IMG/VR virus record: IMGVR_UViG_3300020213_000253
Span: 1 to 21,085 of that record
Source of the DNA: a virus
DNA: 21,085 nt
Strand: one strand, 5' to 3'
Both the position numbers and the translations under genes were made by a program. Below the pieces are notes generated by a model that was not told where the DNA came from, ran no database searches, and worked only from the letters and a program-made list of their open reading frames with translations. Shown here piece by piece: positions 733 to 21,085 of this stretch. Every line of letters begins with the position of its first letter. The first letter of the stretch is position 1.

Positions 733-1025
733 GCCGTCCGCCGTCCCATCGCTTGCCCCTGCATCCAAGTCGCGGTCCGGCAGGCGTCCTTGTGCTCGGG
801 CATCCGGGCGCACCGGGCTTGGGTGTTGCGCATCAGGAGGCCGCACGTTGCCTTGGCGCGCTCATGGACGGGACGGGCGGCAGGTGGCACCGCCCGGCGA
901 CGCACGGGCGCGGCAGCCGTGACCATGCTCCCGCCGATGTAGCGGCGACCCACCGGTCGGACGCCTTCGTCGATGACCACGAGGCGGGTGGCTTGGCCGG
1001 GCTGGCTGAGACGTAGGGCCGACAT
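729..1025 (-). CDS. Hypothetical small basic protein with possible zinc site
   Basis: This 98-residue protein lies directly behind the helicase-methyltransferase gene. The junction is TGATG (stop and start share one base), and its own stop overlaps the next start by 4 bases, so the reading frame is supported by coupling on both sides. Residues 1-35 look like a compact beta-rich segment (TRLVVIDEGVRPVGRRYIGG). Residues 40-55 are Pro/Ala/Arg-rich. The C-terminal part has Cys61, Cys72, His78 and Cys82, which could bind a metal. I do not recognise the family. It is very basic, which would suit nucleic-acid binding. Confidence 0.65.
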   Translation of the reverse strand: MSALRLSQPGQATRLVVIDEGVRPVGRRYIGGSMVTAAAPVRRRAVPPAARPVHERAKATCGLLMRNTQARCARMPEHKDACRTATWMQGQAMGRRTA

Positions 1026-3220
1026 CAGGCGACCGACTCATCCCAGAGTCCCATCACGCCGGAAGCGCGTTCGATGTTCCGGCAGGCCGACTCGTAGTAC
1101 GAACGCTTCAGCTCGCACCCGACGAAGCGGCGATTATTCTGGACCGCTACGTACCCGGTCGTGCCGATGCCCGCAAACGGGTCCAGAACGAGCTCGCCCG
1201 GCTGACTCCACAACTTGATGCAGCGGCGGACCGTCTCCAGTTGGAGCGCGGCGATGTGCCGTTCGTCTCGTTGCTCCCGAGCCTCGGCCGCGTTGAGCGT
1301 CGCGGACTCCCGGATGCCGTACCAGATTGGTCGCGCCCACTCGATCCATTCGTTGTTCGTCACGTCGTCGTTCGTGATGGCGACGGCGTTCTCGCCCGGC
1401 TTGCGAAAGACGAGGATGTAATCGGCGAACGCCGGACGGAGCCACGAGCGGTCCCGCGCCTTCTGGACGAACAGGAGACCCTTGGCCTTCGTGCGGATGG
1501 CCTGTGCCTGGGGGTCCTTGTCGATCGTCACCTCGCCGTGGAACACCCACCCGTGCGCGATGAACGCTCGGATGGTGTCGCCCCGGAAGTCCTTTAGCCC
1601 GGTCACGCCGTCGTGCGTCACGGTGGTCGGCACTTGCTGGACATGGACGGCGCAGTTGCGACCGGGCTTCGTGACCCGGAGGATGCCGTCGATCAGGTAG
1701 CCGAAGTGCTGCCAAAACTCCGGATCGTTGCGGGCGTTCCCGACGTCCCGCTCAGATGGGGAGTAGGTGAACAGGCTCAGGAACGGTGGCGAGAAGACGG
1801 ACAGGTCGATCGACGCCGCTTCGATCTCCGAGATGCGCTCGGTCGAGTCGCCCAGCATCATCTTCCACGACTCACGCTCGACTTCGGTCGTCTCATAGAC
1901 AAAGTTCGTCGGCAGGCCCGCAATCTCATCACGCTCGAAAGCGGCGACGTGCTCGATGAGCCGGTCCTGCATCCGCAGCGCCTCGCGCTCCTTGGCCATC
2001 ACGTTCTCGTAGATGGCCGCCTCGGCATCGGACAGGACGATCGCCACTTCCACTTCCTCCGTCTGGCCGAACCGCCAGCATCGCCGGATGCACTGGTAAT
2101 AGGCCTCCCATGAGTCGGACAGCCCGACGAACGCCATCCGGTGCGCGTTCTGGAAGTTCATGCCGAAGCCCGCGATCCGCGGCTTCGTGATGAGCACGCG
2201 GTACTTGCCGTCCTGAAATGCCTCCAGCGCGGCGGCCTTCTCTTCTGGCGACTGCGATCCTTCGACTAGGACGGCTCCGGGGATGGCTCGCAACAGTGCG
2301 TCGCCCTCGGTGTTCAGGCCGTGCCACACGATCCACTGGTCCGTGGATGCGTTCACGAGGGACGCGGCCCGGGCGCATCGGTCCGCGGCCGTGGCCTTGC
2401 GGACGTTGCTCCGGTCGGTGATGCCCTTCAGCCCGGCAAAGAACAGTTGGCCTTCAGGGACGTAGTCGGACTCCACCCACTCCGGTCGGATGGTCAGCGC
2501 CGATAGCGCGTATCCATCGTCTGAGTAGCCGAGGTCGGACGGCTTGCGAATCGCCATCGACCACGACGCCAGCCAGCGATAGAACGCATCTTCGGCGTGG
2601 CCCTTCAGTCGCCAGCCGTCTTTCTGCCCCTCGCCCATCGAGCCGTGAACGAAGAACGCCGACAGCATCTCGTGGTGCGCCATGACTCCGAGAAACTCGG
2701 CGTGGTTGCCGATCTCGGAGATGTCATTCGGGGCCGGTGTGGCGGTGCAGCACAGTCGGTAGGTTGTGCTCGCGAACATCTCCGTGAGCCGCTGGCGAGT
2801 CTTGCCGTCGAGTGCCTTCAGGATGCTCGACTCATCCAGGACCACGGCATCGAAGTCAGCCGGGTCGAAGTGCTCCAGCATCTCGTAGTTGGTGATCGTG
2901 AAACGTCCAGCCGGCCCGGAGCGTGAGTACGTCACGTCAAGCCCGAGCTTCGCAGCCTCACGCACGGTCTGCCGGGCGACCGACAGGGGCGCGACGAACA
3001 GCACGGGGCCCTCCGTCACGAGACGCGCCCATTCCAGCTGCATGAACGTCTTACCCATGCCCGTATCGGCGAACAGCGCAGCGCGCCCCTTTCGCACCGC
3101 CCATCTCACGAGGTCGGATTGGAACGGGAACAGCATCTCGTGGACGGCCGCCACGTCGGTCGGTCCCACCGCATGGACGATCGGCCGTTTCGTCTCCAGA
3201 AACGCGGCGTAGTCGCTCAC
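1025..3220 (-). CDS. SNF2-type helicase fused to a DNA methyltransferase
   Basis: This 731-residue protein has two enzymatic halves. Residues ~28-430 form a superfamily 2 ATPase of the SNF2 type: Walker A TGMGKT (53-58), DESS Walker B (129-132), motif III TATP (159-162) and the SNF2-like motif VI QCIRRCWRFGQ (376-386). Residues ~455-731 form an amino-methyltransferase: motif IV SPPF (477-480) comes before the SAM-binding motif DPFAGIGTT (680-688) and GCELKRSY (701-708), the order seen in beta-class enzymes. SPPF favours N4-cytosine but does not prove it. The GTG start at 3220 overlaps the upstream stop (GTGA). No restriction nuclease gene is nearby, so a self-protection or DNA-marking role is more likely than restriction. 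An ATP-driven motor could supply translocation or access to DNA. Confidence 0.9.
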   Translation of the reverse strand: MSDYAAFLETKRPIVHAVGPTDVAAVHEMLFPFQSDLVRWAVRKGRAALFADTGMGKTFMQLEWARLVTEGPVLFVAPLSVARQTVREAAKLGLDVTYSRSGPAGRFTITNYEMLEHFDPADFDAVVLDESSILKALDGKTRQRLTEMFASTTYRLCCTATPAPNDISEIGNHAEFLGVMAHHEMLSAFFVHGSMGEGQKDGWRLKGHAEDAFYRWLASWSMAIRKPSDLGYSDDGYALSALTIRPEWVESDYVPEGQLFFAGLKGITDRSNVRKATAADRCARAASLVNASTDQWIVWHGLNTEGDALLRAIPGAVLVEGSQSPEEKAAALEAFQDGKYRVLITKPRIAGFGMNFQNAHRMAFVGLSDSWEAYYQCIRRCWRFGQTEEVEVAIVLSDAEAAIYENVMAKEREALRMQDRLIEHVAAFERDEIAGLPTNFVYETTEVERESWKMMLGDSTERISEIEAASIDLSVFSPPFLSLFTYSPSERDVGNARNDPEFWQHFGYLIDGILRVTKPGRNCAVHVQQVPTTVTHDGVTGLKDFRGDTIRAFIAHGWVFHGEVTIDKDPQAQAIRTKAKGLLFVQKARDRSWLRPAFADYILVFRKPGENAVAITNDDVTNNEWIEWARPIWYGIRESATLNAAEAREQRDERHIAALQLETVRRCIKLWSQPGELVLDPFAGIGTTGYVAVQNNRRFVGCELKRSYYESACRNIERASGVMGLWDESVA

Positions 3221-3462
3221 AGGCCCATCTCCACGGCCACGCCTGTCGTGACCCGGTGAGGTTCGCGGACCACGACAAAGCCCATCTTGCCGTCCGCCCG
3301 ACGCTCGGGTTGGATGACGTAGCCCGCGGCCCGGAGATCCGAGATGCGCGCGCGCGGGTTGCTCACCCATGGATGGACACCCATGCCGATCTCCATGGCC
3401 GTGGCTCGTGGATGGGCGCGGAGGTAGACGAGGACACGTTGGGATTGCGTCATGGCCGTCAT
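3217..3462 (-). CDS. Winged-helix DNA-binding protein
   Basis: This 81-residue protein begins with a helical segment (QSQRVLVYLRAHPRATAMEIG). It continues with a recognition-helix-like stretch (NPRARISDLRAAGYVI) and ends with a beta-hairpin wing (VIQPERRADGKMGFVVV), the outline of a small winged-helix domain of the kind common in phage regulators. The ATG at 3462 overlaps the upstream stop (ATGA); a second ATG three codons later is an alternative. It lies immediately upstream of the helicase-methyltransferase gene and is coupled to it. It may be a regulator or an accessory DNA-binding subunit; this is inference from fold and position. Confidence 0.75.
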   Translation of the reverse strand: MTAMTQSQRVLVYLRAHPRATAMEIGMGVHPWVSNPRARISDLRAAGYVIQPERRADGKMGFVVVREPHRVTTGVAVEMGL

Positions 3463-3749
3463 GGCTTAGGCTCGATCGGCGAGGGCTCGACGTATCGCAC
3501 TTCCTCAGCCCCAAAGCCCAGCATGCAACCGCCCTGACAATCCGGGCAGTAGCCATCCAAGAGGCGGTGTTCGCCGGTCGGCATCAGCGCGGACTCGGCT
3601 GCCTTTGTCAGCAGTTCGTAGGCGTCGCGGTCGGTGATGAGGTAGCCCTGTTCTTCTAGCGACGCGAGCACCGCCGCGTGGTAGGCGGCGAAGTTGGCCG
3701 GGGGTGGGAGGCGAATAAGCGCCACCCGCAGCGCGTCGGAGCCGCTCAT
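3459..3749 (-). CDS. Hypothetical protein with C-terminal Cys cluster
   Basis: This is a 96-residue protein. Residues 1-60 look alpha-helical (AAYHAAVLASLEEQGYLI, then AYELLTKAAESAL). The C-terminus carries CPDCQGGC (Cys68, Cys71, Cys75), a likely metal site lacking an obvious fourth ligand unless His61 contributes. The start overlaps the upstream stop by ATGA and the stop overlaps the next start by ATGA, so it is part of the coupled chain. I do not recognise a family. Confidence 0.7.
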   Translation of the reverse strand: MSGSDALRVALIRLPPPANFAAYHAAVLASLEEQGYLITDRDAYELLTKAAESALMPTGEHRLLDGYCPDCQGGCMLGFGAEEVRYVEPSPIEPKP

Positions 3750-10712: not shown

Positions 10713-12701
10713 CTAGCGCCCACCGGCGTTGGGGCCAACGGCGTCGCGAGTCCGCGAGCCGCCGGACGGCCCGTAGCGAGCAGCCACGGTCGCGGTCTTC
10801 GTGACGGTCGTCGCGTTGACGTTGACGTTGGTGTTGATGACCGGCCGGTTGGCATAGATGGCCGAGACGATGCGAGCCGAGCCGAACATGGTCGCCAGCG
10901 AGGTCTGGGATGCACCGAGCCGGGACGCCGACGCGGTGAGCATCGCGCCGCGGGACGTCTCGCGCTTCGTCTCGGCCGCGGCAGCCGTCAGCCGGTCCTT
11001 GGACGCGTTGACCGCTGCCTTCGCGGCTTCGACGGAGGTGATCGTCTTGTCGCCCTTGCCCTCCAGCCCCTTGCGGAGGTTGGCGATGTTGGACATGAAC
11101 TCCGTGCGAAGCTTGGCGACGGCCGGGGCGACGGGCTCGACCGGCTTGTTGCGGTCTTCCTTGACGTTGCCGCTCCCGCCCGTGGTGTTGGCGATCTGCG
11201 CCGCGAGGGAGGTCTTCATGGAACGCAGGTTGTCCAGCGCCTCGCCCTGCACCAGCGCGTACAGGGGATTGGACGACAGGTCCTTGATGCCCTGGTCCAC
11301 GCCAGCCATCGCGGTCCGCAGCTCCGGCAGCGACTTGCCCGCGATCGAGTTGTCCAGTCCGGTCTTGATGCCCGCCGAAATCTCAGTGTTCTTGCCCGAC
11401 TGATCCTGTTGGACGGCCGCGACCGCAGCGACGGCAGCGGCGGTGAGGGCCGCGCCCGCCAGGAGGGTCCCGACCCCGATGCCCGCGGCGGCACCGCCCG
11501 CCTTGCCTGCCAGCCCGCCAGCACCGCCGCCCACGACGTTGACGACGCCGCCGTTGACGTTGACGACGCCCGACACGAGTTGCTTGAGGACAGACGAGAT
11601 GAGCCCGCCTGCGAGATTGGTGACGAGGCCGCCGGTCAGCTTGTTCACGGCGAGGCCGCCGATGGCGAGCGACTGGATCTCCGGCGGCAGCGAGTTGAAC
11701 AGTTTGACGGCGGTGCCGATGACGGCCCCCGCGGCCTTGGCTGCCGCGCCGATCGCCGGTGCCGCATCCTTGGCCGCTCGCAGGAACCCGCCCAGCACGT
11801 CCGCGCCCTTGCGGATGTTCTCCTTGCTGAACAGGCCCGCGATGTCCTTGCCGAGGTCTTTGACGCCCTGAACCACGGCGGGGTCCTGGAGGAACGTTGA
11901 CATCTCGTCAGCGATGTTGCCGATGGTCGGCAGCAGAAGCTCGGCCCCCACCCGCTGCAAGTCCTCGATGCTGTCCGTGAACTTGGCGACCTTACCCGCG
12001 GTGGTCCCGCCCTTGCCGAGGAACGATCCGCCGTAGCGCTTGTCGAGAGCAGCAAGGATGACGTTCTGCGCTCCCAGCGCGTCATTGTTGTCCAGGTGCG
12101 CGTCGATCTGCTTCTGCTCGGCCTTGGTCAGGATGATGCCCTGTCGTCGCAGCCTCGCCATCGCCTTGGCGGGATCCGACAGCGCCTTGCCGACCGTCGT
12201 GATGGCCGAGTCGAGGTCGGTCCCGAGCGCCGTGGACAGGTCCAGCGCGGTCTTCAGGGTCGGCTCGAACGCCTCCTTGCCGATGGCAGTGAACGTCAGG
12301 AGCAGGTTCTGACCCGACTGGATGACCTCATCGCCGATGGTGGCGTTGAGCGCCTCGTACTTCTCCGAAAGGACCCGCACCTGTTCGGCGCTAACGCCGG
12401 CCGCGCCGCCCGTGGACTTGATGACGGCCTCGGTCTGCGCCGTGGCCTGCTCCAGCTCCACCAGCGACCGGAGGCCGAGCGCCACCTGCGAGGCCAGGAT
12501 GCCGATGCCGAGCGCGGCGATGCGCGCGCCGTTCTTGATGCCGGTCCCGATCTGTTGCCCGGCCTGATACCCGCGCGATGACGTGCGCGAGACCTTGCCG
12601 TCGAACGTGTCGAGCGACTTCCCGGCCTTGCCCAAACTGGACGCGAAGTTACCGGCCAGACTCAGGTTGACGACGAGCTTGGCGGTATCCGCGAGACCCA
12701 T
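10713..12701 (-). CDS. Tail tape measure protein
   Basis: This 662-residue protein lies directly after the chaperone pair. It starts at ATG 12701 with an AGGTGA ribosome-binding site 5 bases upstream, 12 bases after the G-T stop. Residues ~80-220 match the conserved tape-measure core (LEQATAQTEAVIKSTGG, SEKYEALNATIGDEVIQSG, LSTALGTDLDSAITTVGKAL). A long hydrophobic, Gly/Ala-rich zone (~320-430) suits the membrane-inserting part released during DNA ejection. The C-terminal part is helical and charged. At about 0.15 nm per residue, a general rule for tape measures, the tail would be near 100 nm. Confidence 0.95.
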   Translation of the reverse strand: MGLADTAKLVVNLSLAGNFASSLGKAGKSLDTFDGKVSRTSSRGYQAGQQIGTGIKNGARIAALGIGILASQVALGLRSLVELEQATAQTEAVIKSTGGAAGVSAEQVRVLSEKYEALNATIGDEVIQSGQNLLLTFTAIGKEAFEPTLKTALDLSTALGTDLDSAITTVGKALSDPAKAMARLRRQGIILTKAEQKQIDAHLDNNDALGAQNVILAALDKRYGGSFLGKGGTTAGKVAKFTDSIEDLQRVGAELLLPTIGNIADEMSTFLQDPAVVQGVKDLGKDIAGLFSKENIRKGADVLGGFLRAAKDAAPAIGAAAKAAGAVIGTAVKLFNSLPPEIQSLAIGGLAVNKLTGGLVTNLAGGLISSVLKQLVSGVVNVNGGVVNVVGGGAGGLAGKAGGAAAGIGVGTLLAGAALTAAAVAAVAAVQQDQSGKNTEISAGIKTGLDNSIAGKSLPELRTAMAGVDQGIKDLSSNPLYALVQGEALDNLRSMKTSLAAQIANTTGGSGNVKEDRNKPVEPVAPAVAKLRTEFMSNIANLRKGLEGKGDKTITSVEAAKAAVNASKDRLTAAAAETKRETSRGAMLTASASRLGASQTSLATMFGSARIVSAIYANRPVINTNVNVNATTVTKTATVAARYGPSGGSRTRDAVGPNAGGR

Positions 12702-12713
12702 CTAGGTCACCTG

Positions 12714-13321
12714 CTAACGGTTCATGCGACGGAGGGAGGCGCGGTACTGGGCGTCTTCGACGCGCTGGTTCTCACGGAGCAAGGTCCCGAAGAACTCCTC
12801 GGTGAGCAGTTGGCGGGCGGCCATCCACCCGCGGAAGCTCATGCGCTCCGAGGCTCCTGATCCGTAGTAGCGGTCGACGATGGCGACGGCCGCTTCTTGG
12901 TCGAACCCGCGGCCCGAGAGGTCGGCCGTGGGCCAGAGTCGATCGACCCAAGCTGCGAGAGACGCTTGAGTCGTGCCCGTAAAGGGGCGAGGATGTCTTC
13001 GGCGTACAGGTCGTCAGCACGCTCTGCGACCGCCATCCCTCCCTTCCCGTAGGGCAGACGGGCGGCCACGTTGGCCGTGTCCACCGGGAGCGGGTCGCCA
13101 TCGGCATCGACAAGGTTCCACCCGACGATGCCGTGACTGATCCAGATACGGGCCAGTAGCTCTTGGAGCCGGATGGCGTCACCATCGGACTCCGATATGG
13201 CCGCCTGGGCCGCCATCCCGCCCGTCATGGACAGGTGGCGGGCCAGATAGACCTCATCCCCATCGTGCGGCGTGCCGGTGCAGCCACATGGACCGATGGG
13301 GACGACGACGTGGTCGTTCAC
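12714..13321 (-). CDS. Tail assembly chaperone G-T fusion made by -1 frameshift
   Basis: Translation starts as for protein G (GTG 13321), runs 114 codons to the slippery heptamer CCCTTTA (12986-12980), slips back one base and continues in the -1 frame from 12980 to TAG at 12714-12716. The product is about 202 residues. The 88-residue extension looks like a folded T domain (LAAWVDRLWPTADLSGRGFD, then VDRYYGSGASERMSFRGW, then helices ending RASLRRMNR). It cannot be expressed alone: no start codon and a stop at 13014-13016 precede it. In lambda-type phages G-T recruits tape measure and tail tube protein during tail assembly and is absent from the virion. Confidence 0.88.
12839..13321 (-). CDS. 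Tail assembly chaperone G
   Basis: This 160-residue protein is encoded between tail tube and tape measure genes. The GTG at 13321 has GAGGG six bases upstream; the frame is open further upstream but that part reads as non-coding. Residues ~45-115 carry the conserved-looking body (RLQELLARIWISHGIVGWNL, PVDTANVAARLPYGKGG, DDLYAEDILAPLRARL). The last ~45 residues after the slip site are Ser/Pro/Thr/Arg-rich and poorly ordered, as expected for a frame that mainly overlaps the T-encoding frame. The G form should be much more abundant than G-T. Confidence 0.82.
   Translation of the reverse strand: MNDHVVVPIGPCGCTGTPHDGDEVYLARHLSMTGGMAAQAAISESDGDAIRLQELLARIWISHGIVGWNLVDADGDPLPVDTANVAARLPYGKGGMAVAERADDLYAEDILAPLRARLKRLSQLGSIDSGPRPTSRAAGSTKKRPSPSSTATTDQEPRSA
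12944..12986 (-). promoter_or_regulatory. -1 ribosomal frameshift signal
   Basis: A canonical X XXY YYZ heptamer, C CCT TTA, is in the G frame at 12986-12980. A 6-base spacer (CGGGCA) follows, then a hairpin: CGACTCAAGC (12973-12964) pairs with GCTTGGGTCG (12953-12944), 10 bp with one U-G pair, around a 10-base loop. Heptamer, spacer length and stem all fit classic -1 frameshifting. Confidence 0.9.
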
Positions 13322-13433: not shown

Positions 13434-14444
13434 TCAAAGGCTAGCCAAAGTATTGACGACCACGGCCCGGATGGCGTAGGCCAGTGTCGAGTCGTAATGG
13501 CCGCGATAGACGAGCGTGATCGTGGAGTTGCCGCCCAGCTCGCCATCCGACCGACTGATGAGCCGTCCGGGGATGCGGATGGACTGCGAGTAGGGGATGA
13601 CGCCAGTGATGATCTCCGGGCTGGTGGTCTTGACCTCGATATACCGGTTGGGTACCGGCGTGTTCTGGAGCGTGTTCGCCTCGGCTACCGTGGCCGCGGT
13701 CTTGGCGACCACGATGGTCACTTCCACCTCGCGCGCACCGCGCCCGTAGCCCGAGAGCTGGAAACGCGTGTTGGAACCCTGGGCGAACCGCTTGCGGTCG
13801 AGGTTGTTGCCGATGCTGACCGTCACGCCGTGGATGGCGTCCACGAGCTTCGTGGTCCCGATCGACGCGGCCACGCTGTCGAGGTAGACCTCGGTATCTG
13901 CGCCGTAGACCCACTGGGGGGTGTCATCGATGGTCAGGCCGCCGGTGAACCCGGAGATGTCCGCGCGGGCGTACACCAGGTCCGCGTTGACCTCGAAGGC
14001 CGACAGGTCATCGCCGAACGACAGCTCCAGTGAGTCGATGACACCGCCGCCCGCGTTGATGACGTCGGTCGTGAAGTCGTCGCCCCACTGGTCTGTGAAG
14101 TACGCGAAGGCGTCGGCGGTCAGTGAGGCCGCCTGAAAGACCCATGACTTGGCCGTGGCCCCGGTCGGGGAGACACCGCCCGTGACGGTCCCGGCCCACA
14201 GGTACGGGGCGTCGTCGAACGCGAGGTTGCCCTCCCACGAGCCGGACACTTCGGTCGGTCCGTTGAACGGGGCGAGGATGGGGTCGAGCGAGCCGACGTC
14301 CACATCCGGGTCGGTTCGCGCCGGGTCGATGGTGATGACCCCGCGATAGGGCAGGATGCGGGTGGCCGGGGTATTCGAAGAGATCGAGAGCGAGTGTCCG
14401 ATCTGATGCTTCCGAAAACGCGTGAAACCTGAAATCGGGCTCAT
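13434..14444 (-). CDS. Major tail (tube) protein
   Basis: This is a 336-residue beta-rich protein with no signal or membrane segment. It lies between the tail terminator and the chaperone genes, the fixed place of the tube gene in siphophages. The ATG at 14444 has a strong AGGAG ribosome-binding site seven bases upstream. Segments such as SGSWEGNLAFDDAPYLWAGT (residues 67-86), the Gly-rich VINAGGGVIDSLELSFGDD and the C-terminal NSTITLVYRGHYDSTLAYAI read like tube strands. At over 300 residues it is larger than lambda gpV-like tube proteins, so it may carry an added surface domain. It would polymerise as hexameric rings around the tape measure. Confidence 0.85.
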   Translation of the reverse strand: MSPISGFTRFRKHQIGHSLSISSNTPATRILPYRGVITIDPARTDPDVDVGSLDPILAPFNGPTEVSGSWEGNLAFDDAPYLWAGTVTGGVSPTGATAKSWVFQAASLTADAFAYFTDQWGDDFTTDVINAGGGVIDSLELSFGDDLSAFEVNADLVYARADISGFTGGLTIDDTPQWVYGADTEVYLDSVAASIGTTKLVDAIHGVTVSIGNNLDRKRFAQGSNTRFQLSGYGRGAREVEVTIVVAKTAATVAEANTLQNTPVPNRYIEVKTTSPEIITGVIPYSQSIRIPGRLISRSDGELGGNSTITLVYRGHYDSTLAYAIRAVVVNTLASL

Positions 14445-14465: not shown

Positions 14466-14481
14466 GGCTCATGCATGAGCC
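14466..14481. promoter_or_regulatory. 16-bp perfect palindrome over the HNH start codon
   Basis: GGCTCATGCATGAGCC is a perfect palindrome that includes the ATG at 14471 and begins 3 bases after the -10 element. It is placed like an operator for repression of the HNH gene, and it also sits 22 bases upstream of the tail tube gene's start on the other strand. Confidence 0.55.
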
Positions 14482-15028
14482 GACTCCTTCTGAGATAGCG
14501 CGGATGTGGCACCGGGTCCGCTATGACGCGACCGGTTGTTGGGTGTGGACAGGCGCAACGGCGAACTTTGGCTACGGATTGGTCAGCATCGGAGGACGCC
14601 AAGAACGCGCCCATCGAGTGGCGTGGGCGATGTTCAACGGTCCTATCCCTGAAGGGCTAAAGGTCATCCACACCTGCGATAACCCGCCCTGCTGTCGGCC
14701 CGACCATCTTCGTGTCGGAACGCAGTGGGAGAACATGGAAGACATGACCCGCAAGGGCCGACGACGCCACGGCACAAGCGACCAGCGAGGCTCCAGGAAC
14801 GGCTACGCCAAGCTCACTGAAGAGCAGGTCGCGCATATCAAAGGAATGGCCGCGGCGGGCCACTATCAGGACGACATCGCTGCCCGGTTCGGAGTCACCC
14901 GCGCGAACGTGAGCTACGCCACCCGCAAGACGTGGACCCACGTCGAACCGATCCCGTATCCGCCGGCTGTCCGTGATAGGCCCGTGGGACGGGGAGCCCC
15001 CGCCAAGAGAGCCGCCAGAGCGAGCTAG
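14471..15028 (+). CDS. HNH endonuclease with C-terminal HTH (free-standing homing type)
   Basis: This 185-residue protein is on the opposite strand from its neighbours. The nuclease domain has GCWVWTG (22-28), RAHRVAW with His48, then GLKVIHTCDNPPCCRPDHL (His67, Cys74, Cys75, His79) and WENMEDM with Asn88: the HNH_3-type pattern seen in phage homing enzymes. Residues ~113-155 form a helix-turn-helix (KLTEEQVAHIKGM; QDDIAARFGVTRANVSYATR) for target recognition. The gene fills the space between tail terminator and tube genes, and its stop shares the CTAG palindrome with the terminator gene's stop. It probably spreads by cutting phages that lack it. Confidence 0.88.
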   Translation: MHEPTPSEIARMWHRVRYDATGCWVWTGATANFGYGLVSIGGRQERAHRVAWAMFNGPIPEGLKVIHTCDNPPCCRPDHLRVGTQWENMEDMTRKGRRRHGTSDQRGSRNGYAKLTEEQVAHIKGMAAAGHYQDDIAARFGVTRANVSYATRKTWTHVEPIPYPPAVRDRPVGRGAPAKRAARAS

Positions 15029-15462
15029 AGCCGCCCCTCCTGTGCGATGGTCCCGCCGAACGTGAACACGGCAGCGGGGTAGAAAGTGCCCTCAGCGTCG
15101 ATCTCGGCGTCCTCGATGGAAGTCGGCACCGTCACGGTCTGATTGCTGATCGCATGAGGCCGTGCGGAGCAGTAGTCCAGGAACGCATCCACCAGCACGT
15201 CCATCGCGTCGGCCTGTTCACTGACGACCTCGGATAGACGGGCGACGAGGACGATGGTCGGAGCCATCGTTCGCTGGCGGATGGTGGTCCCGGTGTGGAC
15301 GATGGACTCGGGCATCGAGCCGACGTAGCCCGAGAGCTTGTCGGGGAACGTCGCCGGTCGCCGCGAGTAGACGTGATGCAACAGCGTCGGGTTAGCGGTC
15401 TGAAACCCGGTCAGCAGGGCGTACAGGCCGGTCCGCGTGTTGGCCCGGAAGGTGGTCACCAT
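15025..15462 (-). CDS. Tail terminator/completion protein
   Basis: This 145-residue protein is placed directly before the tube gene (apart from the inserted HNH gene), where siphophages encode the protein that caps the tail tube at the head end. It has an N-terminal helix (RTGLYALLTGFQTANP), central strands (TMAPTIVLVARLSE), a long helix (DAMDVLVDAFLDYC) and C-terminal strands ending GTFYPAAVFTFGG, the alpha/beta outline of gpU-like terminators. The start at 15462 forms TGATG with the upstream stop, indicating coupling. Assignment rests on position and secondary-structure pattern. Confidence 0.7.
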   Translation of the reverse strand: MVTTFRANTRTGLYALLTGFQTANPTLLHHVYSRRPATFPDKLSGYVGSMPESIVHTGTTIRQRTMAPTIVLVARLSEVVSEQADAMDVLVDAFLDYCSARPHAISNQTVTVPTSIEDAEIDAEGTFYPAAVFTFGGTIAQEGRL

Positions 15463-16723: not shown

Positions 16724-16738
16724 CAGGGCCGGTTTCAC
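16658..16738 (-). CDS. Possible 26-residue microprotein
   Basis: A short frame begins with GTG at 16738, overlapping the stop of the glycosyltransferase gene by 4 bases (GTGA) as most coupled genes here do, and ends at TGA 16658-16660. The product would be hydrophobic, starting KPALPPLVAGATPACVCWLL, with a CxC pair. The coupling is suggestive but such an overlap can arise by chance, and the frame also covers the palindromes, so RNA structure is an alternative explanation of the sequence. Confidence 0.25.
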   Translation of the reverse strand: MKPALPPLVAGATPACVCWLLGRAAN

Positions 16739-18009
16739 GCGGCTACCTCGATAGATGCGGAATGCACGAGGTCGCGGAACTGCTCGGCAGCCCGGACCCA
16801 TGAGAAGTTGGCCTTGACGTGGGCAGGACCGGCAGCGCCGAGAGCGCGTCGCTTGGACGGGTGCCGGACCAGGTACTCGACCTTCTCAGCCCAGTCGACC
16901 GGATCGATGCAGGCCCACATATGATCGTATTCGTTGTCGATCAGGTGACTGACCTTGGCCGTCAGCCCAGCCGGGCCGATGACTTCGGGGACCGCGGAGT
17001 AGTCGATGCCCACCGCGGGGACGCCGCACGCGATCGCCTCGGCGACCGTCAGGCCAAAGCCCTCGGCGCTGTTCTGGATGTAGATGTCGGCGCTGTTGTA
17101 AAGCTGGTTGAGCTCTTCCCGCGATAGGCCCTGCCAAGAGTCATGGGCGAGGGTCAGCATCACCCGGCTGCGGAACTCCGGGCTGAACTTGGAGAGGGTG
17201 TCCAGCAGGAACCCGCCCTGGTCGTGTACCCGGCAATGGAGGACCACATCGACCAGCGGGTTGCGCTCCATGACCGGCACCAGCGCCCGCAGCATGAGGT
17301 TGTATTGCTTGCGCGGCATGTGTCGATCCGTCCGCAACAGGACGATCCGGTCGGGGTCCATGCCAAAACTCAGCTTGGCCGAGCGCTTCGACGTGCTGCG
17401 CGAGCCGTCATCGTTGACGTGCGCCGATGGCCGGTTGGAAGCCAGCGGATAGAACACGCTCTGGTCCACGCCGTGATAGACCATCGGCGGCTCGTATCCG
17501 ACCACCTTGGCGATCTCGCCCGCCCCGAAGTGCGTCATGGCGACCGGCTTTACGATGTCCCACAGGCCCTTCCACCCGATGGGAAGGCCGACGCCCTCGA
17601 CTGGGCAGTAGTGGAAAGATGGGACCGCGCGGAGTGCCGCCTGGATGCGGGCATCGACCACGATCCAGCGAGCGGCGAAGTAGTCGCCAAGGATGATGAT
17701 GGCCTCGGGTGCCCACTTGTCAGGCATCCCCTCGCCGGTCAGGGCGGCCATGACCATCTCGGGTCGTGCATCGTCGCGAAGGCGGTAGGTGCGACTGCCC
17801 AGCGGCTCGGGGATGACGAAGCCAGTCGCGTTCTGCGAGAGGAACCGGACATCCTCGCCGAGGTCGAGCAGCGCCCGGCCAAGGTCAGCCGTGACCGTCC
17901 CGAAGCCCGTGGCGGCGGCGTCGCCGATGAACAGGATTCTCATCGAACGCCTCGCGGTTTCTTGTGGCGAGCAGTGAACAATCACCTTGCCGCAGTCGGT
18001 GCAGATCAC
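16735..18009 (-). CDS. Glycosyltransferase, GT4-like (GT-B fold)
   Basis: This is a 424-residue protein. The N-terminal Rossmann half begins MRILFIGDAAATGFGTVTAD. The C-terminal half carries the GT4 hallmark ADIYIQNSAEGFGLTVAEAI, in which the two acidic residues of the EGFGLTVAE loop bind the donor nucleotide-sugar, then ACGVPAVGIDYSAVPEV. GTG 18009 overlaps the upstream stop and has GGGAG eight bases before it, adding a 22-residue Cys-containing N-terminus (CTDCGK, then HC); ATG 17943, with GAGG upstream, would give the standard family start and cannot be excluded. It would transfer a sugar, perhaps onto a virion protein given its place beside neck genes. Confidence 0.85.
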   Translation of the reverse strand: MICTDCGKVIVHCSPQETARRSMRILFIGDAAATGFGTVTADLGRALLDLGEDVRFLSQNATGFVIPEPLGSRTYRLRDDARPEMVMAALTGEGMPDKWAPEAIIILGDYFAARWIVVDARIQAALRAVPSFHYCPVEGVGLPIGWKGLWDIVKPVAMTHFGAGEIAKVVGYEPPMVYHGVDQSVFYPLASNRPSAHVNDDGSRSTSKRSAKLSFGMDPDRIVLLRTDRHMPRKQYNLMLRALVPVMERNPLVDVVLHCRVHDQGGFLLDTLSKFSPEFRSRVMLTLAHDSWQGLSREELNQLYNSADIYIQNSAEGFGLTVAEAIACGVPAVGIDYSAVPEVIGPAGLTAKVSHLIDNEYDHMWACIDPVDWAEKVEYLVRHPSKRRALGAAGPAHVKANFSWVRAAEQFRDLVHSASIEVAA

Positions 18010-19001
18010 GACAGGAACTCCCGGATGCGCTCGGCCTCAGCGGCGAAGTCGACGTGTTCATCGAAGACGGCGCGGATGGCCCGGCACATCGCCAGATGCT
18101 CGTCAGCCGTGATCGTTCGCAAACGCTCGGCGACTTCCGTAGTCGAATGCTTGTCGAGGTCTATGCACGTCACGCCGTCCACCCAGAACGGTTCCGCCAT
18201 GAGGTCGCGGTAGTGCGCCGCGTGCCCGATAAGGGGCCGCCCGATGGCCGCCCAGTCGTGGATGACGTGCCCGAACCCGTCGCCCTGCACCTTGTCGTGC
18301 CAGCCCCACGCGCTCTCGCGCATGAGTCGGGCGATATCGGCGACCGTCTCGACGTTCCCATCGGGGCCGTCGATGCCGTGACTGGTGAACTCCCGGTCCG
18401 GCAGCATCGCCCGTACCTCGTCAAAGACGCGTTGGCAGGGGGTGGAGCCGAAACAGTTGACGAAGGAACGGATCGGAGCGGTCGGCGCTGTCGGGTCCGT
18501 CTGACCGAAGGCCCCTTCGGCGTCGAACTCCTGGTGATAGAGGATGCCCCGTCCACGGATGGGGACCTCTGAACTGACCAGCGCCAGCGGGTCGAGGCCC
18601 CAATCGACGGCCTGATTGGTGTTGCCGACCTGAAGGGCGTACTTCGCGCCGAGGTCATTGGCGAGGCGGTGGAACCCGCGCTGGTTGTCCTGCACCGTGG
18701 CGATGACGAAGGCCCATTCGCGGGACTTGGCACCGGCCACGTCCACGCCGTAGATGGCGCGTTCGGGTCGATGCGGGTCGGAGGATAGGTAGGTGCCGTC
18801 GTCAAGGCTGGCCCAGCCCGCCCGGTTGAGGAACTGGCGAGCGAGGCGATCGTCGCCGTAGCCCTCGCCGAAGCGCCAGTAACCTTCGTCCCACCATTCG
18901 TTCCCGACCGGCGTGTAGACGCGATAGCCGAGGCGGTCCTCGAACAGGACTTGGAGGCTGTGGAACAGGTCGTGATGGTGGCGGTCTATCAGGACGTTCA
19001 C
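18006..19001 (-). CDS. Glycosyltransferase-like protein
   Basis: This is a 331-residue protein. The N-terminus (NVLIDRHHHDLFHSLQVLFE) is of a type that I associate with phage glycosyltransferase-like proteins: a His-rich loop, a helix and then YRVYTPVGNEWWDEGYW. The C-terminal half contains GDGFGHVIHDWAAIGRPLIG and a late helix AERLRTITADEHLAMCRAI, compatible with the donor-binding half of a GT-B enzyme, although the acidic pair of GT4 enzymes is not obvious. GTG at 19001 overlaps the stop of the zinc-finger gene (GTGA); the frame upstream of this is a shadow. It is encoded between two other glycan genes. The enzyme class is an inference. Confidence 0.6.
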   Translation of the reverse strand: MNVLIDRHHHDLFHSLQVLFEDRLGYRVYTPVGNEWWDEGYWRFGEGYGDDRLARQFLNRAGWASLDDGTYLSSDPHRPERAIYGVDVAGAKSREWAFVIATVQDNQRGFHRLANDLGAKYALQVGNTNQAVDWGLDPLALVSSEVPIRGRGILYHQEFDAEGAFGQTDPTAPTAPIRSFVNCFGSTPCQRVFDEVRAMLPDREFTSHGIDGPDGNVETVADIARLMRESAWGWHDKVQGDGFGHVIHDWAAIGRPLIGHAAHYRDLMAEPFWVDGVTCIDLDKHSTTEVAERLRTITADEHLAMCRAIRAVFDEHVDFAAEAERIREFLS

Positions 19002-19177
19002 GGCCAGTCCACCGCTCGGATGCTCTGGCCCATGCGCCCCTGCTCGCGGTGCAGTCGACGATGACGAGCGAGGGTGCGGACCACGAAGCGCCGGCTGGTG
19101 TACCAGGCTCCGACGTTCACGCCGCACCACTCGCAGAACGGCTGCCATTGGGGCTGTTGGCGTTCATCGACTCTCAT
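18998..19177 (-). CDS. 59-residue C2H2 zinc-finger-like protein
   Basis: This tiny protein has Cys15, Cys18, His39 and His43, a CxxC-N20-HxxxH arrangement with aromatic and basic residues between (AWYTSRRFVVRTLARH). Its ATG at 19177 overlaps the stop of the glycosyltransferase gene (ATGA) and its stop overlaps the start of the next gene (GTGA), so it is fixed in the glycan operon at both ends. The finger may bind nucleic acid or one of the neighbouring enzymes. No family is recognised. Confidence 0.65.
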   Translation of the reverse strand: MRVDERQQPQWQPFCEWCGVNVGAWYTSRRFVVRTLARHRRLHREQGRMGQSIRAVDWP

Positions 19178-20178
19178 CCGAGGAACGCCTTCCACTGCGC
19201 CCCGATGGCGTCCTTGCCGAATAGCTCGATCGCCTTGATGCGACCGAAGGCTCCGACGCTGGCGGCGAATGCCCGGTCGTCGATCAGGTCCCGCAGTAGA
19301 TCCTCGGCGATTGCCGTCGAGTCGGCGGTGAGGACCGCGAGGTCAGCGCCTTCGAACAGGTCCGGCCCGTAAGGGAAGATGCCCATCCACGACGGCCCGA
19401 TGGAGACCACGGGGATGCCGGTCATCATCGCTTCGATAAGGCCGAGGGTGTAGCTCGCCGGCTGGGTGCCGGTGTAGAGGTAGGCGCGGTGGACGCGCAG
19501 CGCCTCCTGCATCAGCTCCAAGGACATCTCGCCGGTCCCGCCGATGACTTCGGAGCCCGGCCCCATCGGGATGCGCGACAGCCCTTCCGTGGCCTGATCC
19601 CAGAAACCCCAGTTGGTGTACGGCTCGCGCTGCCGCAGGTGCTGGGTGAAGTTGATGACGGTCGGGTGCTGGCCCGTCCAGCCCTTCCACTCGTCGGGGT
19701 CTTTGTAGAACCGGATCAGAGCATCCTCGCCAGCGTAGCCGGGGATGTTCCGCTCCTTGGGCGAGTAGCGGACGATCTGCATCCCCGCCTTGTGCAGCGG
19801 AGCCATCATCCGTTCGTTGCCTTCGACCGACTGGCCGACCGTTCGCCAGATGACGCGCTTGTGCTTGATGCGGTCCCACTGGGGATAGAGCCAGGTGTGC
19901 TCCAGGTGGTGGACGATGATCGTGTCGCACCAATCGAGGATGGCGTCCGGGATGTGCAGCTTGGCCGCCGTCAGGTTGTCCGGCGTGCCCAGCGCATCCA
20001 CCACTGCGTGGAGGTCCGCGTGATACGGCACGTCCGGCAGCGCCTCGCGCTTGGGGTCGTGCGGATGGGCGGGGTCGATGTAGCCGCCGATGCTGAACAC
20101 GTCGTAGCCGAGGCCCGACAGCAGCTTGAGCTGATCGTGCTCTTCGATACTGTGGGCTAGTAGGAGTATAATATTCAT
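19174..20178 (-). CDS. Glycosyltransferase (GT-B fold, group 1-like)
   Basis: This is a 334-residue protein. It begins with a strand (NIILLLAHS) and a helix, has a middle Rossmann-like region (CDTIIVHHLEHTWLYPQWD; RVIWRTVGQSVEGNERMM), and a C-terminal donor-binding half with AYLYTGTQPASYTLGLIEAM followed by TGIPVVSIGPSWMGIFPYG. The IEAM...GIPVV pattern is that of GT4-like enzymes, but the first acidic residue of their ExxxxxxxE loop is not obvious. No ribosome-binding site is visible before ATG 20178, because the 5' end of the antisense endonuclease gene lies there. It probably acts with the FkbM methyltransferase and the two other transferases. Confidence 0.78.
   Translation of the reverse strand: MNIILLLAHSIEEHDQLKLLSGLGYDVFSIGGYIDPAHPHDPKREALPDVPYHADLHAVVDALGTPDNLTAAKLHIPDAILDWCDTIIVHHLEHTWLYPQWDRIKHKRVIWRTVGQSVEGNERMMAPLHKAGMQIVRYSPKERNIPGYAGEDALIRFYKDPDEWKGWTGQHPTVINFTQHLRQREPYTNWGFWDQATEGLSRIPMGPGSEVIGGTGEMSLELMQEALRVHRAYLYTGTQPASYTLGLIEAMMTGIPVVSIGPSWMGIFPYGPDLFEGADLAVLTADSTAIAEDLLRDLIDDRAFAASVGAFGRIKAIELFGKDAIGAQWKAFLG
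20167..20172 (+). promoter_or_regulatory. Perfect -10 box for the endonuclease VII gene
   Basis: TATAAT on the plus strand lies inside the first codons of the divergent glycosyltransferase gene. The predicted start at about 20179 immediately precedes GGAGGTGA (20180-20187), giving a very short leader. A weak -35 (TTCGAT, 20143-20148) is 18 bases upstream. Confidence 0.5.
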
Positions 20179-20192
20179 CGGAGGTGACCGAG

Positions 20193-20663
20193 TTGCGAGA
20201 GGGACGAACTGCTAAGGATGTCGGGGCGCGGCCGCCGTGCGAATGCCACGGGACACCAATGCGCTGGAACAAGCGCGCCGACTTGGTGGCAGGCGGCTAC
20301 TGGCGATGCGGAGAGTTGTACAAAGACACCCAGAAGGCGTGGGCCGATGCCCACCGCGAACAACGCGCCGCGTACATGGCTAAGTGGCGAGCGGACAACC
20401 AACGGGATCGACGCGCCTACATGCGCCGCTACCGCTACGGCATCGACGCCGAAACGTACGACGCGCTGTACGCGCGCCAGAATGGCCGCTGCGAGCTCTG
20501 CGACGTTCCAGCCGAGAACGCCCCGAAGGGCGCCCTGCATGTTGACCACGACCATGCGACTGGACGCGTTCGCGGTCTTCTCTGCGTCCAATGCAATGCC
20601 GCCTTGGAGAGACTTGAGCGGATCGGCTGGACGAACCGCGCTACGGCCTACCTCGCGGCCTAA
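20193..20663 (+). CDS. Endonuclease VII-like HNH nuclease
   Basis: This 156-residue protein starts at TTG 20193. TTG is preferred over GTG 20184 because GGAGGTGA (20180-20187) sits five bases before the TTG but overlaps the GTG. The C-terminal domain matches phage T4 endonuclease VII-type nucleases: CELC (100, 103), then LHVDHDHATG with the catalytic-type DHDH (118-121), then GLLCVQCN (Cys131, Cys134). The four cysteines would hold zinc. An N-terminal module (CECHG...GGYWRC) may be a further zinc site, followed by a basic helix. Such enzymes cut branched DNA or act as homing nucleases. The gene is antisense between two glycan genes, its stop 4 bases from the FkbM gene's stop. Confidence 0.85.
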   Translation: MREGRTAKDVGARPPCECHGTPMRWNKRADLVAGGYWRCGELYKDTQKAWADAHREQRAAYMAKWRADNQRDRRAYMRRYRYGIDAETYDALYARQNGRCELCDVPAENAPKGALHVDHDHATGRVRGLLCVQCNAALERLERIGWTNRATAYLAA

Positions 20664-20667
20664 CCAG

Positions 20668-21085
20668 TTAGCCACGGCGCACCGCCCGGAACCCGCCGGG
20701 GCCGCCTTCGGGACCGTTGAGGGTCACTTCGTGGGTGGCGTCCAACAGGGCGATCAGGTCAGCCGAGGTGTGCCCTCTGACCGGGTGCCACTCGCCCAGG
20801 AAGATGTCCACGTCCTTGACGGCTGGGGAGTCGAGGAACGCCCACTCCGCGCCTTCGGTGTCGATCTTCAGCAGGGTGATGGGGCCGTGCGCCTTGACCA
20901 GCGAGGCGAGGCTGATGGCCTTGTATGTCGAGGTCTGGTGGTCCTGTGGGGCCGAGTCATAGGCCAGCGTGGAGTTGCCGACGAAGGCGTGATGCTCCAG
21001 CGACTCGGAGCCCGTGTAGCCGTACCACACGTCCACCGTCTCGCCACCCTTGCCCGCTGCGCCGACGACCAGCGTGATGCGGTCG
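20668..21085 (-). CDS. FkbM-family methyltransferase, C-terminal part (cut by window edge)
   Basis: The frame is open from the right edge to TAA at 20668-20670, so the N-terminus lies outside the window. Visible motifs are the FkbM core LLKIDTEGAEWAFLDS (the I-D-x-E-G-x-E motif, ending the first strand-helix of the C-terminal half) and, before it, TLVVGAAGKGG and LASLVKAHGPI, typical of the family, which O-methylates sugars and small metabolites using SAM. The GTG 16 codons into the visible part is unlikely to be the true start, because the family sequence continues upstream of it. Position beside three glycosyltransferase-type genes suggests methylation of a transferred sugar. Confidence 0.8.
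   Translation of the reverse strand, partial: DRITLVVGAAGKGGETVDVWYGYTGSESLEHHAFVGNSTLAYDSAPQDHQTSTYKAISLASLVKAHGPITLLKIDTEGAEWAFLDSPAVKDVDIFLGEWHPVRGHTSADLIALLDATHEVTLNGPEGGPGGFRAVRRG

Follow-up and report, generated by a model that had tools for sequence, protein, structure and literature searches.

Predicted G/GT-type frameshifting at a conserved slippery heptamer in putative tail chaperone genes of metagenomic phages

Two overlapping reading frames lie ahead of the tape measure gene in the DNA of an uncultured phage. Are they a tail assembly chaperone gene, G, and an extension, T, that ribosomes would reach by slipping back one base, and if so, which sequence elements would make them slip? 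We asked this of a 21,085-base IMG/VR virus record, analyzed whole and called the window here; end repeats were looked for in it and are absent.

Gene order and overlapping frames in the window

On the minus strand of the window, head-tail connector genes are followed by a tail protein gene (phrog_290), the G open reading frame, the T frame and the tape measure gene. Two overlapping ORFs sit between the putative tail-tube gene and the tape measure gene, as a lambda-type G/GT pair demands. The features are as follows, each with its evidence:

13434..14444, minus strand: tail protein gene directly upstream of G (phrog_290 'minor tail protein', 1.2e-6)
12839..13321, minus strand: G gene, predicted tail assembly chaperone (ORF, 40 relatives, AlphaFold2 model, Foldseek matches to annotated chaperones)
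13014..13016, minus strand: T-frame stop upstream of the slip (rules out a start further upstream)
12980..12986, minus strand: slippery heptamer C CCT TTA (read from the sequence, kept in relatives, codon bias)
12974..12979, minus strand: spacer CGGGCA, 6 nt (read from the sequence)
12944..12973, minus strand: hairpin, 10 bp with a 10-nt loop, possible lineage-specific stimulator (arms identical in relatives L008-L010)
12714..12980, minus strand: predicted T domain, -1 frame, 88 codons plus stop (dN/dS in the T-only part, AlphaFold2 pLDDT 95.1)
10713..12701, minus strand: tape measure protein gene, next downstream of T (PF06791, 2e-8; PHROG tape measure, 3.4e-12)

Judged by gene order and its phrog_290 match, 13434..14444 probably encodes the major tail (tail-tube) protein, and the gene at 15025-15462 would by position be the tail terminator. 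Between these two, on the opposite strand, lies an HNH endonuclease (14471-15028, plus strand; PF13392, 8.8e-18). A recombination endonuclease VII domain (20184-20663, plus strand; PF02945, 1.3e-20) is also on the strand opposite to the structural genes. Beside the head-tail connector genes, 16735-21084 (minus strand) is a possible sugar-modification cassette, beginning with a glycosyltransferase (PF00534) at 16735-18009. The pair of long ORFs at 18006-20178 has no Pfam match, and the window end carries an FkbM methyltransferase domain (PF05050). At 1025-3556 (minus strand), one 843-aa ORF carries SNF2/ResIII-like helicase and N6/N4 DNA methylase domains (PF00271, PF01555).

The G frame runs from a GTG start at 13321 to a TGA at 12839, for an unshifted product of 160 aa. 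The minus strand from 12990 to 12940 reads TCGCCCCTTTACGGGCACGACTCAAGCGTCTCTCGCAGCTTGGGTCGATCG, and the G-frame codons GCC CCT TTA place C CCT TTA at 12986-12980, an XXXYYYZ heptamer in the G/T overlap that is canonical and in the correct frame. Beyond it the G tail is 46 aa. An earlier note on this DNA had pointed out this heptamer with its 6-base spacer, and after it a 10-bp hairpin at 12973-12944 with one U-G pair; both are exact to the base. Elsewhere in the G frame, XXXYYYZ heptamers occupy 3 of 2700 positions across 27 family members, and TTA accounts for none of the 3029 codons in eight other window genes.

The slip site and the T frame among relatives

Searching viral contigs (IMG/VR) by profile returned 40 related loci, with G protein identity down to about 30%; a further viral scan, wider and based on a 33-sequence alignment, found no new contig. 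At the aligned place, which directly follows the conserved A-D-D-L-Y...P stretch in G, CCCTTT[A/C/G] is present in 37 of the 40 relatives. Two others carry a different canonical heptamer, TTTTTTA in L011 and CCCAAAC in L045, for 39 of 40 in all, so that in these two the letters and amino acids are altered and slipperiness is retained. The last, L026, has no canonical heptamer: it reads C CCC TTG (then ATG) where its G frame matches EVLRPL. Perfect re-pairing is possible there only for the P-site tRNA, yet the T frame of L026 is intact. The heptamer (non-canonical in L026), the frame relation, the T domain and the gene order are all kept in the 40 relatives. In every contig that extends far enough, T is followed by the tape measure gene, whose start resembles ETAxLxVxLxL in most loci.

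As several loci are near-identical, we used 27 representatives for counts. At the slip, the Pro codon is CCT in 27/27 (versus 19/257 elsewhere) and the Leu codon is TTA or TTG in 22/22 (versus 20/516 elsewhere); the representatives were picked from loci having CCCTTT, so these counts describe rarity and are no blind hypothesis test, and Fisher values on them ignore shared ancestry and are not exact. For these GC-rich phages, the codon choice at the slip site is extreme. It is the heptamer that is conserved as the signal.

The T frame is open from the slip to a TAG at 12716-12714, the 88 residues that the earlier note had given. Its upstream stop, 13016-13014, lies 30 nt before the heptamer, and no ATG, GTG or TTG occurs in the window's T frame between that stop and residue 47, where the first one, an ATG, stands; in most relatives too the T frame has no start codon ahead of the domain. 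Across the family, T length is steady at 84-113 aa, and the G tail beyond the heptamer varies between 12 and 57 aa. In the T frame, comparison of the window with L009 over the T-only stretch gives a dN of 0.109 and a dS of 0.582; dN/dS is higher in the other two frames. Purifying selection acts on the T part. In the overlapped nucleotides alone, conservation is equal in the G and T frames (0.307 vs 0.310), and that comparison does not discriminate between them. AlphaFold2 with the family alignment folds T confidently (pLDDT 95.1). By its selection and its model, T is a real protein domain; the earlier note had called it sensible. A fold search with T gave nothing significant; the chaperone of Bacillus phage 019DV002, which is also a G match, appears at E = 4.4.

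What kind of protein would G be? Neither G nor T has a sequence relative in Pfam, PHROGs, the PDB, INPHARED or GTDB genome contigs. With the family alignment, AlphaFold2 models residues 1-114 of G at a pLDDT of 89.5, and Foldseek gives this model a match probability of 0.99-1.00 against viral proteins that carry a tail assembly chaperone annotation, the best named matches having modest TM-scores of 0.41-0.45. In this model, G resembles known tail assembly chaperones by fold only, and the chaperone function of G and T is a prediction. They appear to form a chaperone family without coverage in Pfam or PHROGs, new to the libraries searched.

Could T instead be translated independently, from its own start or by re-initiation, with no fusion made? 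T alone does fold as a compact domain in AlphaFold2, but the stretch from the stop at 13014-13016 to residue 47 offers no start codon, as the earlier note had held of this frame, the same is true ahead of the domain in most relatives, and CCCTTT conservation and codon bias would be left without explanation. We rejected an independent T start on the absence of start codons and regard this reading as highly improbable. The frame break could also be an assembly or sequencing error, or the mark of a decayed gene, and in a single metagenomic contig an indel is conceivable. However, the same frame relation in 40 separate contigs of divergent sequence refutes an indel artefact, and purifying selection on T speaks against decay, so that the chance of either is negligible. 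Because of the heptamer conservation, the codon bias, the selection on T and its fold, the order with the tape measure gene and the fold of G, we consider it very likely that the two frames are a tail assembly chaperone pair from a long-tailed dsDNA phage, with lambda-type G/GT programmed -1 frameshifting. The earlier note had read the locus in the same way, and the heptamer, frame, T domain and gene order in 40 relatives, with the G fold, support it; the case for frameshifting is an evolutionary one.

The downstream stem

The arms of the stem, 12973-12964 and 12953-12944, form 10 bp including the U-G pair and enclose a 10-nt loop (MFE -14.9 kcal/mol). A perfect stem of at least 10 bp, 5-9 nt downstream and with a loop of 3-20, is found at 0.58% of window positions, and the 40 nt starting 5 nt past the heptamer have a z of -2.9 vs dinucleotide shuffles. 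A 10-bp stem at this place is unlikely to be there by chance. Among the relatives, all ten pairs are possible only in L008-L010, the three nearest; the others form 2-7 pairs at the window's stem positions, with a background mean of 3.8. A conserved downstream stem, sought across the family, showed no enrichment, and folding was no stronger than background (28 sequences directly past the slip, mean z -0.51; control offsets -0.67 to +0.51). A search by eye for a pseudoknot between the loop and downstream sequence showed none. Individual relatives have other possible hairpins, and a different stimulator per lineage is possible.

The earlier note had called the signal complete and had proposed comparing heptamer and stem in related phages. 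In that comparison the heptamer held up, with CCCTTT in 37/40 and another canonical heptamer in two, and the stem was not conserved; 'complete' overstates the signal because the stem is confined to the window and three near relatives. We therefore rejected the stem as a family-wide element. It would be at most a lineage-specific stimulator, a local addition that may contribute to the slip.

Within this lineage, the heptamer and hairpin might nevertheless act together, with the hairpin essential and selected, a refinement that is compatible with lambda-type frameshifting. The spacing is correct, the z and the rarity of so good a stem favor it, and the 43-nt elements of the window and L009 differ only in the loop, at three points. 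Those three are adjacent to each other, however, and may be one event; the arms are invariant within the near clade and so give no covariation evidence; the remaining family members lack the stem at these positions, and folding past the slip does not rise above the control offsets across the family. We rate an essential hairpin at somewhat under an even chance. A broader proposal is that this chaperone family, known to date from metagenomic phages only, slips on CCC-TTT-[A/G/C], in most members with the very rare Leu codon TTA in the A site, without a conserved structure, the shift perhaps arising from slow rare-codon decoding rather than RNA structure; this we find tentative and rather unlikely. 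The absence of a conserved stem does raise a modest question: would a rare A-site TTA suffice?

Proposed mechanism and known systems

In the lambda-type mechanism that we favor, most ribosomes would read G through to its own stop, making the 160-aa product. A minority would slip back one base, the Pro-tRNA moving from CCT to CCC and the Leu-tRNA from TTA to TTT, and continue in the T frame to give a 202-aa GT fusion with the junction ...ILAPL|TGTTQ.... The predicted GT peptide across the Leu-Thr slip junction is EDILAPLTGTTQASL. As in lambda, G would serve to coat the tape measure protein and T to recruit the tail-tube subunit; in that case, we propose, the slip rate would set the G:GT ratio. 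The slip itself, its rate and any help from the stem are predictions.

In the lambda model, G binds the tape measure and T recruits the tube protein, at about 30:1 (PMC5009743). The -1 frameshift behind lambda gpG/gpGT (Levin 1993; Xu 2004, 2013, 2014, as reviewed in PMC5009743) shares with the window two overlapping frames, a slip near the 3' end of G, a low-abundance fusion (predicted here) and a location directly ahead of the tape measure gene. Unlike lambda's, the window pair matches no Pfam or PHROGs chaperone model; its heptamer is CCCTTTA and its G tail 46 aa.

By tape measure, the nearest named phages are Gordonia phage Malibo and Microbacterium phage SansAfet. Both have annotated joined frameshifted pairs (gp16/17 and gp13/14) directly ahead of a related tape measure gene, as here, but their slip regions, GGGAAAC (Malibo) and GGGGGAA (SansAfet), differ from the CCCTTT of the window family, and a profile comparison of Malibo G with the window family G detected no relation. 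In structure, predicted chaperones in BFVD from Bacillus phages Gemini and 019DV002 and Siphoviridae sp. ctiJm4 match the G model at a Foldseek probability of 0.99-1.00, with 16-24% identity and TM-scores of 0.41-0.45.

The -1 frameshift site of West Nile virus is CCCUUUU. It shares a CCCUUU-type slippery heptamer with the window, but the virus is a eukaryotic RNA virus, and the gene and its function are unrelated; frameshifting in West Nile virus is the subject of PMC11507841. In a limited literature search, whose silence proves little, no paper linked a phage slip site to CCCTTT or CCCUUU. For SEA-PHAGES genomes, PRFect reports 2397 joined chaperone genes; it also reports XXXYYYZ sites in which each position is seen with all nucleotides (PMC10885494). 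Given these joined genes and the lambda model, the mechanism is well known, and the present pair is a real but ordinary instance of it that leaves the understanding of the process unchanged. With it, the phages whose tail assembly is set by programmed frameshifting would gain a tail-chaperone family undetected by Pfam and PHROGs. Annotators gain a rule for the slip site: CCCTTT[A/C/G] directly behind the conserved A-D-D-L-Y...P of G locates the missing T part.
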